This document shows positions 39,070 to 45,213 of a DNA stretch of 46,567 nt, one piece after another. The stretch lies in NCBI GenBank assembly GCA_025351825.1, contig JANXVE010000029.1:1-46567 (forward strand), in the 5' to 3' direction. A program made the position numbers and the translations under genes. This stretch comes from Chamaesiphon sp. 341R_metabat_111 (lineage in GTDB: Bacteria > Cyanobacteriota > Cyanobacteriia > Cyanobacteriales > Chamaesiphonaceae). A model generated the notes under the pieces. It was not told the origin of the DNA and did not search any database. It saw only the letters and a program-made list of their open reading frames with translations. Within the stretch, counting starts at the first letter, position 1; every line of letters starts with the position of its first letter.

Positions 39070-39879
39070 CTACTCACCTTTAAAGATTGCCGCAGCTAGT
39101 TCTCTGAATTTGTAAGGATCGCCTTCGGGATGGGGTTGCTCTTGGCGTTTTCGGGCATAAAGCTTGGCGAGAGTTGTTTGCCAATCGACTGAGAGCTGTT
39201 GCTCCATGGCTGGCTGTGTACTAAGGATTTCGGTAATGTAAGCTTGAATCTCACTTTGTGCCAGCCAAATTCTGGCAATCACCGCTAAATTATCATCACT
39301 ATCTACTAATCGATCGAAGTGTCCCAATATTTGGCGAGTCAAATCGGGGCTGCTAATAGTACTAGCGATCGCGAGTTCCTGCAATCCAGTAATTGCGGCA
39401 TACCTGACCACCCACTCATGATCCTGCGACACTGCGAGTAGTACTTCGACCACTTTTGCCTGAGTGGACTCGATTAGTTCTACTGCCAATTCATCCCAAT
39501 GAATTGTCCCCAATCCCCTCGCCGCTGCCCGTCTGACACTCAGTGCAAAATCATTTTTGGCGGCATCCAGCAATAAATCCAGTGCTTGAGGATCGCCAAT
39601 CCCCGCTAATGCCCTCAACGCCCATGCTCTCGCGCCATAATTATACCCATCCAGCAATTCTAGCAGCGGTTTGACAGCAGGCTGACCGATCGCAATTAGC
39701 CCTTCTACTGCCGCTACCGCCGCCCCAGGATTGTTGTAGCCTAAAACCGTAATTAGATTCGGTACAGCAGATTCTAGCTGCGCCTCTGCCAACTTCTCAA
39801 CAGCTTCAACCATCTGAGTAGATGAAGCCGCCTCAGCAATAGCCAAAAGCAATGTCTTGAGTAAGTCAGGATCGCTCAT
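39070..39879 (-). CDS. cpcF: HEAT-repeat phycobilin lyase subunit, CpcF type
   Basis: 269 residues of HEAT-like repeats (PBS lyase type): VPNLITVLGYNNPGAAVAAV, PLLELLDGYNYGARAWALRA, DFALSVRRAAARGLG, EWVVRYAAITGLQELA. The LGYNNPGAAVAAVEGL and DGYNYGARAW blocks are those of the F subunit of CpcE/CpcF, which attaches a bilin to Cys84 of the phycocyanin alpha chain. A PecF-type role cannot be excluded. It is about 50 residues longer at the C-terminus than typical CpcF. No CpcE partner, rod linker or other lyase is next to it; it lies about 180 bp downstream of cpcA. Confidence 0.75.
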   Translation of the reverse strand: MSDPDLLKTLLLAIAEAASSTQMVEAVEKLAEAQLESAVPNLITVLGYNNPGAAVAAVEGLIAIGQPAVKPLLELLDGYNYGARAWALRALAGIGDPQALDLLLDAAKNDFALSVRRAAARGLGTIHWDELAVELIESTQAKVVEVLLAVSQDHEWVVRYAAITGLQELAIASTISSPDLTRQILGHFDRLVDSDDNLAVIARIWLAQSEIQAYITEILSTQPAMEQQLSVDWQTTLAKLYARKRQEQPHPEGDPYKFRELAAAIFKGE

Positions 39880-40058
39880 TTAGATTTTAGATTGCTGCAT
39901 CAACTACTAATTATCAACGATCGACGATCGACTATCAACTATCTACAGGTACTCACAGGCAAAAAATTACCCCTCAGTCATTTCACATTGCCAACGATAT
40001 CGCAAGCAGCAGGAGATAACTTTAGGGGATAACTATGAACTAATTTATGAACTAGCTT

Positions 40059-40547
40059 CTAGCTCAAAGCGTTAATTGCATAGTCGATGTAGGAATTGGC
40101 TTCTACCGCAGCATCGCCAGCCAAACCGTGGTTCGATCTGATGTACTTGAGAGCTTCAATGTACCAGCTAGGAGCCAAGTCAAAAGTTTTGTTGATTTCA
40201 GCCAAACCACCCAAGAGGTAGTCATCCATCGGGCCAGTACCGCCAACTACACAGCAGTAAGTAACCATGCGGAGGTAGTAACCGATGTCACGCACACACT
40301 TTGCTTTACCAATAGCAGTAGCAGCAAAGTTAGGACCTTGCATAGTCGTGGTGTACGGAAATTTTTGGTAAACAGCATTAGCTGCACCATTTGCTAAGGA
40401 CTCAGCATTTGCAGTCAAACCTTTAGCGGCGGTTAAGCTAGCAGTAGCCTGACGAAAACGACCGAAAGCAACCTGAAATTCAGTGCTGCTCAAAAAGCGA
40501 CCTTGGGAATCTGCGGTAGCGACTGCTTCGGTTAATGGAGTTTTCAT
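40059..40547 (-). CDS. cpcA: Phycocyanin alpha chain
   Basis: 162 residues, the normal length. It opens [20 protein letters not shown] and has Cys84 in [14 protein letters not shown] as the single bilin-binding cysteine, and it ends [12 protein letters not shown]. Forms alpha/beta hexamers in phycobilisome rods on the thylakoid surface. AAGGA lies about 10 bases before the ATG. Downstream of cpcB across a 158-bp repeat-containing gap, followed by the lyase gene. Which bilin is attached cannot be read from the sequence. Confidence 0.95.
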
Positions 40548-40597
40548 GATGTTTCTATCCTTACTAGTTGTTACGTTATTAGTTTTTGAGTCAGTTG

Positions 40598-40706
40598 TTA
40601 GTGGTTTAGTTGTTAGTTTTTAGCTGGATTAACAGTCACAAGCGACGATCTGACGCTTCTGACTTATCGCTAAACCACTAAACTACCAAACCACCAAACC
40701 ACCAAC
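40598..40706. repeat. Inverted and tandem repeats in the cpcB-cpcA gap
   Basis: TTAGTGGTTTAG (40598-40609) is the exact inverse of CTAAACCACTAA (40670-40681); the latter runs into a tandem ACCAAACC array. The transcript could form a long-range hairpin between cpcB and cpcA, which might tune their ratio. Confidence 0.55.
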
Positions 40707-41224
40707 TAAGCTACTGACGCTGCTGCACGATCGAAATAACCAGCAACTTCAGAAGTCAACGCGCTACAGTCACCGTTGGTGATGTTGGCTTTGTCAGACA
40801 TGATCGCAATTGCGGCATCTTTCATTTTGGAGACACCAGCAGCTACGGATGAGCCTGGAGTACCTAGCGCGAGGTAAGTTTCGCGTAAACCATTCAAACA
40901 ACGATCGTCTAGTACAGATGCGTCGCCTGCGAAGATCGCGTAAGTAACATAGCGCAAGATGATTTCCATGTCGCGTAGACAAGCTGCCATCCGGCGGCTG
41001 GTGTAAGCGTTTCCACCTGGAGCGATCAGGTTTGGCTGATCGGCAAATAGGCTTCTGGCTGCATTTGCAACGATCGTGGAGGAGTTGCTGGTGATCCGGT
41101 TGACGGTATCCATGCGTTTGTTGCCGTCAGCTACCATTGCAGCTAATGCATCTAATTGTCCAGTGCTGAGGTATTGACCTTGAGCATCTGCTTGTGCAAC
41201 AACTTTAGAGAATCCGTCTAACAT
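40706..41224 (-). CDS. cpcB: Phycocyanin beta chain
   Basis: 172 residues, normal length. Bilin cysteines at Cys82 ([18 protein letters not shown]) and Cys153 ([11 protein letters not shown]); Asn72 in APGGNAY is the residue usually methylated; Asp39 in KRMDTVNR is the B-ring site. Some positions (MLDGF start, AAASVA end) recall phycoerythrocyanin beta, but the partner alpha is clearly CpcA. AAGGA lies eight bases before the ATG. First gene of cpcB-cpcA, preceded by a 322-bp leader and promoter region. Confidence 0.93.
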
Positions 41225-41546
41225 ATATTTAATCCTTTTATCTGTTTAATAGTTTTGGTGTCAAATTTATATACTGGGGTTGCACCCTGCGGGTAACACA
41301 GTCGATAAATTCGGGAGAACTCTCATATCAATATGAGAGCCGGACAAGTCTAACTCTATTTTTCACAGAGCCGATCTCACATAACTAATATTAACTATTA
41401 TGTTGAGTTTATACAATGTTATGTGAACCCTTTTTCAGTTCTTCCTCATTTTCGTCACAAACGTTAACATTCGCCCAGAATCATGCTTTAGAGCGAATGA
41501 GTGACACGATCGCACCGCCGCTTGCGGGTTATTCTACAGAAAGATT
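41225..41546 (-). promoter_or_regulatory. cpcBA promoter and leader region with paired palindromes
   Basis: 322 bp between pebB and cpcB. CTCTCATAT/ATATGAGAG form a perfect palindrome at 41320-41339, about 100 bp before cpcB. TCACATAAC (41377-41385) and GTTATGTGA (41418-41426) are perfect inverted copies about 41 bp apart, centre to centre; a CATAAT-type -10 on the minus strand (41397-41402) lies between. No convincing -35 was found, so the exact promoter is uncertain. No known light-response motif was recognised. Confidence 0.45.
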
Positions 41547-42290
41547 TTAGCTTTTGACCAATTTCCGCTCCAAGTCAAACAAAAAGCCGTGGATGTATTC
41601 CTCTGTCCACTCTTCACCGTAGAATCTCTTCAGCATCCCTCTTGCCGGATCTTTTTCGGAACGATATCGCACATACCGCAATTGTGCTTGCTTAATCTCT
41701 TCTAATCGCTGTGGATCGGTAATCGGCTCGGCTCGATCGACAAAATCTAGATAAGCTCCGAGATAATCCTTGAATGCGCCAAATACATGCGTCTCAACTG
41801 CTACTGTCTCCGAAGGACGAGTCCAGAGGAAGGCTGGCGAGAAAAATGCTTTGGCTTCTTCAGGAAAGTCACCACCCCAAGGCAAATGAGCTTGGTATTC
41901 CTGAAACATCGGCAAAATCGGCGTGGTGTAACGCTCTTGATAGGCTGGCTCATTCCAGAATAATGGTTGCATATCGATCGCGATCAAATGTCCGCCTGGA
42001 AGAGTAACTAAATCTGCCCCAAAGAAGGGTAAGTCGTAGTTGAGGTTGGGGAAAATCACAAAATTGAGGACTTGCAGGGATTGCCCACCTTGAACGTGTG
42101 CAGCTCGAATTTGGCGCAGTTTAGGAGACTGAAATCCATAGCTAGTAGTGATGACTTCTGATTGCTTATCACCTTTACCCGTGATGGCACTATTGCGATC
42201 GAACCCAGTTGGAATGGGATAATCACTGATATCTAGTCGTGACTTGATATATTCGATGCCGTAGTCAAGGAATGGTTGGTAGAGGGTCAT
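41547..42290 (-). CDS. pebB: Phycoerythrobilin:ferredoxin oxidoreductase
   Basis: 247 residues of the ferredoxin-dependent bilin reductase family. It reduces 15,16-dihydrobiliverdin to phycoerythrobilin (EC 1.3.7.3). Shared with PebB proteins are [49 protein letters not shown] and [15 protein letters not shown]. The Asp in AIDMQP is the expected proton donor. Soluble, cytoplasmic. The gene follows pebA by 153 bp of CTTTAGG-type repeats on the same strand. Confidence 0.92.
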
Positions 42291-42296
42291 TTTTAA

Positions 42297-42446
42297 GGCT
42301 TTAGGCTTTGGGGATTAGGCTTTAGGTTTGGAACTAGATGTTGGGCTTTGGGCTTCGGTCTTATCTGCTAGATTGTTTCAATAGATAGAACTCTTGCAAA
42401 TTTTCTAATCTTGACCTAAAGCCCAAAACCTAAAGCCCAACGCCTA
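42297..42446. repeat. CTTTAGG-type heptad repeats in the pebA-pebB gap
   Basis: Runs of TTTAGGCTTTGGGGATTAGG (from about 42299) and, inverted, CCTAAAGCCCAAAACCTAAA (about 42415) face each other across the gap. The right array supplies the pebA stop codon (42444-42446). Related arrays lie at about 43260-43312 and 43757-43785. STRR class. Confidence 0.65.
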
Positions 42447-43166
42447 AACAACAGCCAGAGGCACAGAGTCCTCAAACAAGAATTCATGCAGGAAGCGTTC
42501 TGACCATTCGGGTCCAAAGTAGCTGCTAAATAATCCTGAAGCGGGGTCGCGTTCGGCACTGTAGCAATCGTAATCTTTTTGCGCTTTGGCAATGCGGCGG
42601 ATATCAGCAGGATCTGTGAGGGGTTCGGCTCGATCGATCATCTGCCAGTATAGATCTAGATAATCCTTGAATGCTGCTAGTAATCTCGTTGAGACGGTTT
42701 CGGGGTCTGTCTTGGCAAACAGTAAATACTTGGAGAAATATTGGTTGGAATCGTAAAATTTCATCTCCAAATCTTGGGATAGATCTGGGTAACGATCGTG
42801 CAGAAATTTCAACGGTTCGATATGCTTTTTCTGATACGCTTCATCCTGGAATAGGGGCTGAAAATCTAGTACCACTAGATTCTTGACTTTACCAAATGAG
42901 AGAAAGTCCAATCCTAACAAGGGTAAATCGTAGTGATGATCGGGATAAATTACGCAGTTGAAAATTTGGGAACTAGCACCAGCATCAATGTATGTGTACC
43001 TGATTTTGCGTAGCTGGGGACACTGATAAGACCAGCTTTGAATCGTTGCTGGGCTTTTGCCGCGTTCGCTGACATTTAATTCCAAACCAGTTGGAATCGA
43101 TCGCTGCTGTAAGTCAAATTTGGCTGTCAGTTCGCGTTCTAAGTGGTTTAAAAATGGCTTGTACAT
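42444..43166 (-). CDS. pebA: 15,16-Dihydrobiliverdin:ferredoxin oxidoreductase
   Basis: 240 residues, ferredoxin-dependent bilin reductase. It performs the first step from biliverdin IXalpha to 15,16-dihydrobiliverdin (EC 1.3.7.2), handed on to PebB. PebA features: QIFNCVIYPDHHYDLPLLGLD, VVLDFQPLFQD (catalytic Asp), DSNQYFSKYLLFA, YSAERDPASGLFSSYFGPEW and FLHEFLF. The end of the gene is made by a CTTTAGG repeat, so the last residues (PLAVV) may be recent. First gene of the pebAB unit, ahead of cpcBA on the same strand. Confidence 0.92.
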   Translation of the reverse strand: MYKPFLNHLERELTAKFDLQQRSIPTGLELNVSERGKSPATIQSWSYQCPQLRKIRYTYIDAGASSQIFNCVIYPDHHYDLPLLGLDFLSFGKVKNLVVLDFQPLFQDEAYQKKHIEPLKFLHDRYPDLSQDLEMKFYDSNQYFSKYLLFAKTDPETVSTRLLAAFKDYLDLYWQMIDRAEPLTDPADIRRIAKAQKDYDCYSAERDPASGLFSSYFGPEWSERFLHEFLFEDSVPLAVV

Positions 43167-43462: not shown

Positions 43463-43723
43463 TTATTTACGTTTAAATGAAAAAAGGTTGCTGCCGAATA
43501 GAGGTAAGCAGGCACCAAGAATGAAGCCGAGTGCGACTGCGCCAGCTAATACCAGTCCCCACGGGAGATCGATCGATTTCCAGGTTGCAAAGTTGATGCT
43601 GACTAAGCTAGCATTTTGGACTGAAATTAATGCGATTACAGCAATCCATATGGCAGCTATCACCGAAACAGTTAAGTTAACCATAAATGTCCAAAGGATA
43701 AAAGTAATCAGGAGATCGGACAT
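43463..43723 (-). CDS. Small LapA-like (DUF1049) two-helix membrane protein
   Basis: 86 residues. Two hydrophobic segments (about 5-35 and 52-76) with a short loop and a basic end FGSNLFSFKRK, the LapA/DUF1049 layout. The family is of unsettled function, linked in enterobacteria to lipopolysaccharide assembly. It lies 62 bp downstream of the phosphohexomutase gene on the same strand; a MITE has inserted exactly at its stop codon, duplicating ATT so that the TAA is kept. Confidence 0.75.
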   Translation of the reverse strand: MSDLLITFILWTFMVNLTVSVIAAIWIAVIALISVQNASLVSINFATWKSIDLPWGLVLAGAVALGFILGACLPLFGSNLFSFKRK

Positions 43724-43785: not shown

Positions 43786-45213
43786 CTACTTCAAAGCTTC
43801 GATCGCAGTTTCCATTGTCGTCGCTAGTTTAGTCAACTCCTCTGCTGAATGAGTCTCTAGATAAACCCGAATCAATGGTTCGGTACCAGAGGCGCGGAGT
43901 AGCACCCAGCCACCATCGGCGAGATAGAATTTGACCCCATCCTTTCGTCCAACTTCTTTGACTTCGATTCCGGCAATACTCGTGGGAGGATTTTCGGTAT
44001 AGGTTTTCATTACAGCTAGCTTGTGAGCATTATCTAGATGTAAGTCCAGGCGACGGTTGAATAATGGCCCACCCGCTTCAGCGATGACTTCGGCGACCAT
44101 TTGGCTCAATGGTTTGCCTTCGTAAGCGATCGCTTCGGCAATCAGCATATCAGCCAGAATACCGTCTTTTTCGGGAATGTGGCCGATGACGCTCAAACCA
44201 CCAGATTCTTCACCACCGATCAGTACGGGGATGAGCCGCATCTGTTCGCCGATATATTTGAAGCCGACGGCGGTTTCAATTAATGGCACACCATGCTTGG
44301 CTGCAAAGTTGTCTAGCAGGTGGGTAGTTGCCACTGTGCGGACGATCGCGCCCGTTTTGCCCTTATTCTTAATTAAGTGCTTTGCCAGTACCAACAGGAC
44401 GGTATTTGGCGTGAGCATATTCCCTAGCTCATCGACGATGCCAAATCTATCTGCGTCGCCATCTGTTGCGACACCGAGATCGGCTTTATCTTTCTGGACA
44501 GCAGCAATTAGTTCGCCCAAGAGTTCCGCTTTGGGTTCGGGCATACCACCACCGAATAGTACATCCCGCTGCATGTGGAAGGTTTCAGTTTCACAACCGC
44601 AATGGAGCAATACTTTGTCCAAATATCCGCGCGAGGTGGAATACATCGCATCAAACTTGACTTTGAGCTTTGCCGATCGAATCCGATCGACATCGAGTAG
44701 GGTGTAGATAAATTTAAAGTATTCTGGCTGCGGATCGAAGGTGCTAATCTTATCGCTATTCTTCTTCATTGGTGGCGCGTCACTGGCACCATCTAGATTA
44801 GCAACGATCGTATCCGTGATCGCCAAGGTTGCTGGCCCTGCATAGTCAGGGATATACTTAATCCCACAGTAAGCAGCCGGATTGTGACTGGCGGTAAACA
44901 TCAGCGCACCCGCCGAGTTGAGATGCCGAGCATTATAAGCAATTACTGGAGTCGGACAATCTCGATCGACAATTTTCACCGTCCAGCCCAGATCTGCGAG
45001 AACTTCTGCCGCAGTATGGGCAAACTCATCCGCCAAAAACCTCGGATCGTAAGCGACTAACACTGGCCGATCCTGACTGTAAGCCGTGCTGAGGTATGCG
45101 GCGATTGCTCTTGTCACCTTACATACATTAGCAAAGGTAAAATCCTCGGCGATAATTCCCCGCCATCCATCAGTCCCAAACTTAATTTGATGCGTACTGC
45201 TACCTGCGCTCAT
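43786..45213 (-). CDS. Phosphoglucomutase/phosphomannomutase family protein
   Basis: 475 residues of the alpha-D-phosphohexomutase family, four domains. Phosphoserine loop MFTASHNPAAY (Ser109), metal loop VATDGDADRFG, sugar-binding loop GGEESGGLSV, phosphate-binding loop LLRASGTEPLIRVY. It interconverts hexose 1- and 6-phosphates; whether glucose, mannose or both is not decided by the motifs. Likely in glycogen or cell-surface sugar supply, cytoplasmic. Gene start preceded by MSAGSSTHQIKFGTDGWRGI. Upstream of the LapA-like gene. Confidence 0.92.
   Translation of the reverse strand: MSAGSSTHQIKFGTDGWRGIIAEDFTFANVCKVTRAIAAYLSTAYSQDRPVLVAYDPRFLADEFAHTAAEVLADLGWTVKIVDRDCPTPVIAYNARHLNSAGALMFTASHNPAAYCGIKYIPDYAGPATLAITDTIVANLDGASDAPPMKKNSDKISTFDPQPEYFKFIYTLLDVDRIRSAKLKVKFDAMYSTSRGYLDKVLLHCGCETETFHMQRDVLFGGGMPEPKAELLGELIAAVQKDKADLGVATDGDADRFGIVDELGNMLTPNTVLLVLAKHLIKNKGKTGAIVRTVATTHLLDNFAAKHGVPLIETAVGFKYIGEQMRLIPVLIGGEESGGLSVIGHIPEKDGILADMLIAEAIAYEGKPLSQMVAEVIAEAGGPLFNRRLDLHLDNAHKLAVMKTYTENPPTSIAGIEVKEVGRKDGVKFYLADGGWVLLRASGTEPLIRVYLETHSAEELTKLATTMETAIEALK

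Follow-up and report, generated by a model that had tools for sequence, protein, structure and literature searches.

Do pebA and pebB, the genes for phycoerythrobilin synthesis, betray an unusual phycocyanin when they lie directly upstream of cpcB and cpcA with a single cpcF-type lyase gene behind them? The question is raised by a 46,567-nucleotide contig (the window, contig C23) from a 4.06-Mb assembly in 202 contigs that is rated 99.58% complete (G000), and whose host is a Chamaesiphon species. A sequence-only reading of the locus had proposed either coordinated synthesis of the pigments or a phycocyanin carrying phycoerythrobilin (PEB), as in R-phycocyanins. We find an ordinary arrangement overall. 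Our preferred explanation, to which we give a probability of about 0.72, is that the locus is what remains in Chamaesiphon of a common pebA-pebB-cpcB-cpcA neighborhood, often continued by linkers and cpcE-cpcF. PebA and PebB would convert biliverdin into PEB, as expected of their families, and the ordinary C-phycocyanin encoded by the window cpcBA is practically that of a second copy on contig C77. CpcF, by its family, would act in trans with the C77-encoded CpcE to attach phycocyanobilin to Cys84 of CpcA. The PEB would be destined for phycoerythrin, with cpeBA and cpeY most likely missing from the assembly or very recently lost.

The gene order had been read correctly. The pebA-pebB-cpcB-cpcA-cpcF series occupies the minus strand from 43166 to 39070, all five products pass curated NCBIfam cut-offs and the Pfam families agree. 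Both reductases of the PebA/PebB pathway are therefore represented above cut-off, and CpcB and CpcA of the window exceed the equivalog cut-offs for C-phycocyanin. D106 and D214 of PebB, which we take to be the catalytic aspartates, are unchanged in all 14 aligned PebB sequences. The best solved match of the window CpcF is 5n3u_B, a phycocyanobilin lyase subunit beta.

The expectation that peb genes usually lie beside phycoerythrin genes fails among the closest PebB relatives. A PebB alignment was used to scan named bacterial genomes, giving 306 confirmed relatives of which the best 80 were analyzed. Relatives of Nostoc are heavily represented among the 80, and two of the genomes, L148 and L150, are Chamaesiphon that also belong to our genus set; several of the loci end at contig ends, and gene-order counts are lower bounds. 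In at least 44 of the best 80 loci, pebB is followed on its own strand, 192-2006 bp downstream, by a cpcB of more than 60% identity, and a cpeB more than 60% identical lies inside the fetched flanks of 3 of the 80, a weak cpeB-like match at L162 being excluded from the count. The 44 loci include at least 37 with cpcE, 31 with cpcF and 29 with both, and 11 have a linker or a cpeS-, cpeT- or cpeR-like gene on the other side of pebAB. The pebAB-cpcBA order is found in Nostoc, Brasilonema, Scytonema, Pseudanabaena, Moorena, Mastigocoleus and others, and in four genomes (G001, G026, G029 and G034) it occurs alongside a CpeB above cut-off. The relatives G001 and G008 share pebAB-cpcBA-cpcF with the window, and G001 also has cpeBA. 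Judged by these loci, pebAB upstream of cpcBA is a common cyanobacterial order, and the adjacency is, for the nearest relatives of this PebB at any rate, a misleading cue and no sign of an unusual phycocyanin. A literature search returned no paper that we recognized as describing this order; in the available part of a study of Baltic picocyanobacteria, pebAB and cpcEF lie within a single phycobilisome gene cluster (PMC4139726).

Such an order might mean that pebAB-cpcBA is a single co-transcribed operon that evolved for co-regulated pigment supply. The genes share a strand, the gaps between successive genes from pebA to cpcF are 153, 322, 158 and 179 bp, and the order is conserved across many genera. 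However, two blocks of the pebB-cpcB gap, at about 41408-41488 (63/82 identical) and 41305-41351 (39/47), align with the region upstream of cpcBA on C77, where pebAB does not precede these genes. The upstream block is conserved over nine upstream regions from six genomes, and six of the nine are not behind pebAB. With an upstream region that also stands before cpcBA copies with no pebAB ahead of them, cpcBA is probably transcribed from a promoter of its own, and we consider the single operon unlikely. Scans for promoter-like and terminator-like patterns gave matches at chance level. Coordinated supply of both pigments survives as a fair reading of the conserved order, although a conserved upstream region belonging to cpcBA itself is retained.

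The lyase gene had been described as lone, and it has a partner. Within G000, CpcF exceeds its cut-off only in the window and CpcE only on C77, where the order is cpcB-cpcA-cpcE with the second cpcBA copy, so that the genome holds both subunits of the CpcE/CpcF lyase. The same split is observed on a single contig of G006, where cpcE follows cpcBA near 1.39 Mb and cpcF follows another cpcBA near 3.82 Mb, and in G001, with cpcBA-cpcE on C68 and pebAB-cpcBA-cpcF on C2. Since the split is common to G006 and G001, we read it from gene order as an arrangement shared in the genus and not as a damaged operon. The statement that cpcE, linkers and phycoerythrin genes are not in view thus holds for the window, and genome-wide it fails for cpcE (C77) and for linkers (C65, C91 and C20).

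The window CpcF also bears a C-terminal tail resembling W...L..LY..K..ER...EGDP..(F/Y)..LA. In a survey of 39 listed CpcF, two being repeats of L098 and L100, this tail is present in 11 (the window, L098, L100, L162, L185, L191, L192, L193, L210, L240 and L293); others among the 39 are without it, L209 has part of it and a few are truncated. The NCBIfam model of the CpcG4 rod-core linker, around positions 184-230, is matched by all six of the 11 tails that were scanned (E 2e-4 to 2e-8). A BLAST comparison with a single G000 CpcG gave no significant result.

The inventory of the genome is as follows. PF00502 has 12 matches. Four are cpcB and cpcA on C23 and on C77, C138 carries a further two, C62, C8, C20 and C4 carry a single match apiece, and a long C5 open reading frame (ORF) is matched in two pieces; those on C138, C62, C8 and C5 are read as apc genes and ApcE. 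PF05996 has three matches; besides PebA and PebB, there is a reductase on C120 that is read as PcyA. PF00427 has eight, with four in the long C5 ORF, two rod linkers on C20, and single proteins on C65 and on C91, which are read as CpcG-type. The C20 linkers are clustered with a CpeS-family gene (PF09367), a CpeT-family gene (PF06206), a cpeR-like gene whose protein has no Pfam family match, a DUF2656 protein and a phycobilisome-protein homologue (C20:109937-110395; L017 6905-7579). For the linkers, CpcG models gave the only matches, with scores well under cut-off, and the Cpe linker and CpeR names on C20 are provisional ones that follow gene order and general background.

Phycoerythrin itself was not found. 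All 16 CpeB candidates in G000 were scored and none exceeds the cut-off, so that the earlier failure to see cpeBA holds for the whole assembly. We take cpeB as the mark of a phycoerythrin-containing phycobilisome, and its absence here may be an assembly gap. Several observations weigh against our explanation. In an assembly of this completeness the lack of CpeB is one. CpeY, recognized by place, length and score with four copies checked by sequence, is present in seven of nine genus genomes and not in G000 or G008. A cpeZ-like gene on C160 is contiguous with other DNA and has no cpeBAY upstream, unlike in G005 and G007. A third linker, presumably CpeE-like, is present in G001, G004 and G008 and not in the assembled C20 cluster. 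Finally, G000-specific changes are somewhat raised in pebA (5 vs 5, 5 vs 2 and 6 vs 2). The third linker is likewise not in G005 and G007, both of which have cpeBA.

Speaking against a true absence of phycoerythrin, the C20 cluster of linkers, cpeS, cpeT and the cpeR-like gene is retained and under purifying selection. The ratio of nonsynonymous to synonymous substitution rates (dN/dS) of these genes and of pebA and pebB lies between 0.006 and 0.095 where compared with G001, G004 and G008, and in the four kinds of cluster gene the G000-specific changes exceed those of the relatives by at most two in any comparison. More changes in G000 than in relatives are seen in cpcF, cpcE and the C20 phycobilisome-protein homologue, the last with 13 vs 7 and 12 vs 4 in comparison with G001 and G008.

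Across 291 genomes of the order, PebB exceeds its cut-off in 111, CpeB in 110 and both in 105. The six PebB genomes without CpeB above cut-off are G000, G008, G037, G076, G258 and G290. G008 and G037 are 77% and 75% complete, and the PebB of G290 has four internal stops. In this survey at most 11 CpeB candidates were scored per genome, and because these were 11 of 28 in G076 and 11 of 21 in G258, the absences in those two are weaker than that in G000. G076 is a second 99%-complete genome of the order with PebB and no CpeB above cut-off among the candidates scored. Conversely, five of the 110 CpeB genomes (G005, G007, G152, G153 and G222) have no PebB above cut-off, the match in G152 being broken.

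Possible sites of a missing cpeBA were considered. The junction on C91 between the CpcG-type gene and a dCMP-deaminase-like gene, with no cpeBA, is not necessarily a deletion, as the same junction is present in G002, G003 and G006. For a possible gap beyond the end of C5, the genes neighboring cpeBA in G005 (chrA-like, and two that are read as RluA-like and VOC-like) lie dispersed in G006 and G007. An RluA-like match is present in G000 at C94, with another piece on C157, along with a chrA paralogue of only 45% identity, and the VOC-like neighbor has no match there. A DedA protein flanks cpeBA in G005, G007 and G001, and was not found in G000, G002 or G008 at E 1e-20. Elsewhere in the genus, the cpeA, cpeY and cpeZ proteins of L112 (G004 C67) and L241 (G002 C143) are 100% identical and those of cpeB 91%, a pattern that suggests transfer, recombination or mis-binning.

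Were cpeBA and cpeY truly lost and pebAB kept, CpcE/CpcF together with CpeS- and CpeT-type lyases might attach PEB to phycocyanin, giving green-absorbing rods assembled on cpe-type linkers. This would account for a 99.58% complete assembly with no cpeBA or cpeY. It would also fit the linkers, as G000 has only two rod linkers, both by CpeS- and CpeT-family genes, and their best matches to the G006 rod linker CpcC1 are only 44% and 41% identical. Engineering lends it some plausibility. In the available part of one report, S. elongatus given pebAB without phycoerythrin channels the light absorbed by PEB, which is read as PEB possibly attached to phycocyanin, and green-light harvesting by PEB on phycocyanin alone is argued to be possible (PMC11976284). 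In what is available of another, low pebAB induction gives full-size phycobilisomes with a 560-nm excitation peak; at high induction, however, PEB replaces phycocyanobilin, rods collapse and growth slows (PMC11334911). Moreover, we find no relaxed selection on the cpeR-like gene, cpeS, cpeT or either rod linker of G000. G005 and G007 share the two-linker cluster, likewise have no linker more than 46% identical to CpcC1, and yet have cpeBA. The implausible converse discordance, CpeB without PebB, also occurs. We therefore regard a PEB-bearing phycocyanin as unlikely too, and an assembly gap or very recent loss is the likelier account of these sequences. It seems quite improbable that this Chamaesiphon lives naturally without phycoerythrin and loads PEB onto ordinary phycocyanin, with retained cpe-type linkers carrying rods that absorb green light, as a wild equivalent of the engineered strains. 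If the loss were true, the organism would provide a natural test of whether PEB on phycocyanin alone supports green-light harvesting. From the accessible portion of a cryoconite study, ccaS homologues are present in two Chamaesiphon metagenome-assembled genomes, and Asian cryoconite is dominated by phycoerythrin-bearing lineages (PMC8941735).

In our preferred explanation the phycocyanin is an ordinary one, and the two cpcBA copies are consistent with this. The window and C77 copies are 97% identical in DNA for cpcB and 96% for cpcA, and are 82-92% identical to the other type I copies compared in the genus. The CpcB proteins of the window and C77 are identical; between the two CpcA proteins, 4 of 162 residues differ, as does the start codon (ATG vs GTG). 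The two type I copies of G006 are 100% and 99% identical. Those of G001 are 94% identical in cpcB and only 88% in cpcA, and therefore homogenization of copies is not uniform. G001, G002, G003, G004 and G006 also have a second type of cpcBA, diverged and accompanied by rod linkers (72-80% DNA identity where compared); no such copy was found in G000. By our own criterion, an R-phycocyanin should have an apoprotein that differs from the C-phycocyanin present in that cell. A dedicated R-phycocyanin isoform encoded by the window cpcBA, as adjacency to pebAB might suggest, we reject as very improbable, since its products equal (CpcB) or nearly equal (CpcA) those of the cpcE-linked copy and C-phycocyanin/phycocyanin structures outscore R-phycocyanin 1f99_B for CpcB (up to 294.9 vs 264.3 bits).

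Table 1. Features of the window around the pebAB-cpcBA-cpcF genes.
Feature	Position	Strand	Details
pebA	42444..43166	-	240 amino acids; NF009720 368.8 bits vs cut-off 263; PF05996
pebB, phycoerythrobilin:ferredoxin oxidoreductase	41547..42290	-	247 amino acids; NF009723 469.7 bits vs cut-off 327
pebB-cpcB gap, 322 bp, holding the cpcBA upstream region	41225..41546	-	block alignments to C77 copy
cpcB, phycocyanin beta subunit	40706..41224	-	172 amino acids; TIGR01339 313.5 bits vs cut-off 279.3
cpcA, phycocyanin alpha subunit	40059..40547	-	162 amino acids; TIGR01338 302.7 bits vs cut-off 269.45
cpcF, F subunit of CpcE/CpcF alpha-84 bilin lyase, with C-terminal tail	39070..39879	-	269 amino acids; NF058515 279.3 bits vs cut-off 220
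LapA-domain ORF	43463-43723		upstream of pebA
putative phosphoglucosamine-mutase relative	43786-45213		upstream of pebA; read from sequence
major facilitator superfamily (MFS) transporter		opposite	downstream of cpcF

Three known systems offer comparison. Engineered S. elongatus, as presented in the parts of the two reports available (PMC11976284, PMC11334911), resembles the G000 assembly in having pebAB and phycocyanin and no cpeBA. It differs in being artificial, whereas G000 is natural and keeps cpe-type linkers, cpeS, cpeT and a cpeR-like gene, and any PEB loading in G000 would be putative. The pebA-pebB-cpcB-cpcA-(linkers)-cpcE-cpcF loci of Nostoc, Brasilonema, Pseudanabaena and other genera match the window in the order and strand of pebA-pebB-cpcB-cpcA, and among the 44 loci of this type a cpcF-type gene lies downstream in 31, as in the window. 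Unlike them, the window cluster is without cpcE and rod linkers, and cpcE lies beside the second cpcBA on another contig. A parallel in this last respect is Chamaesiphon G006 (L292, L293), where, as in G000, the E and F lyase genes each stand behind separate, nearly identical cpcBA. There, however, pebAB is not beside cpcBA-cpcF and instead follows the linker/cpeS/cpeT/cpeR-like cluster.

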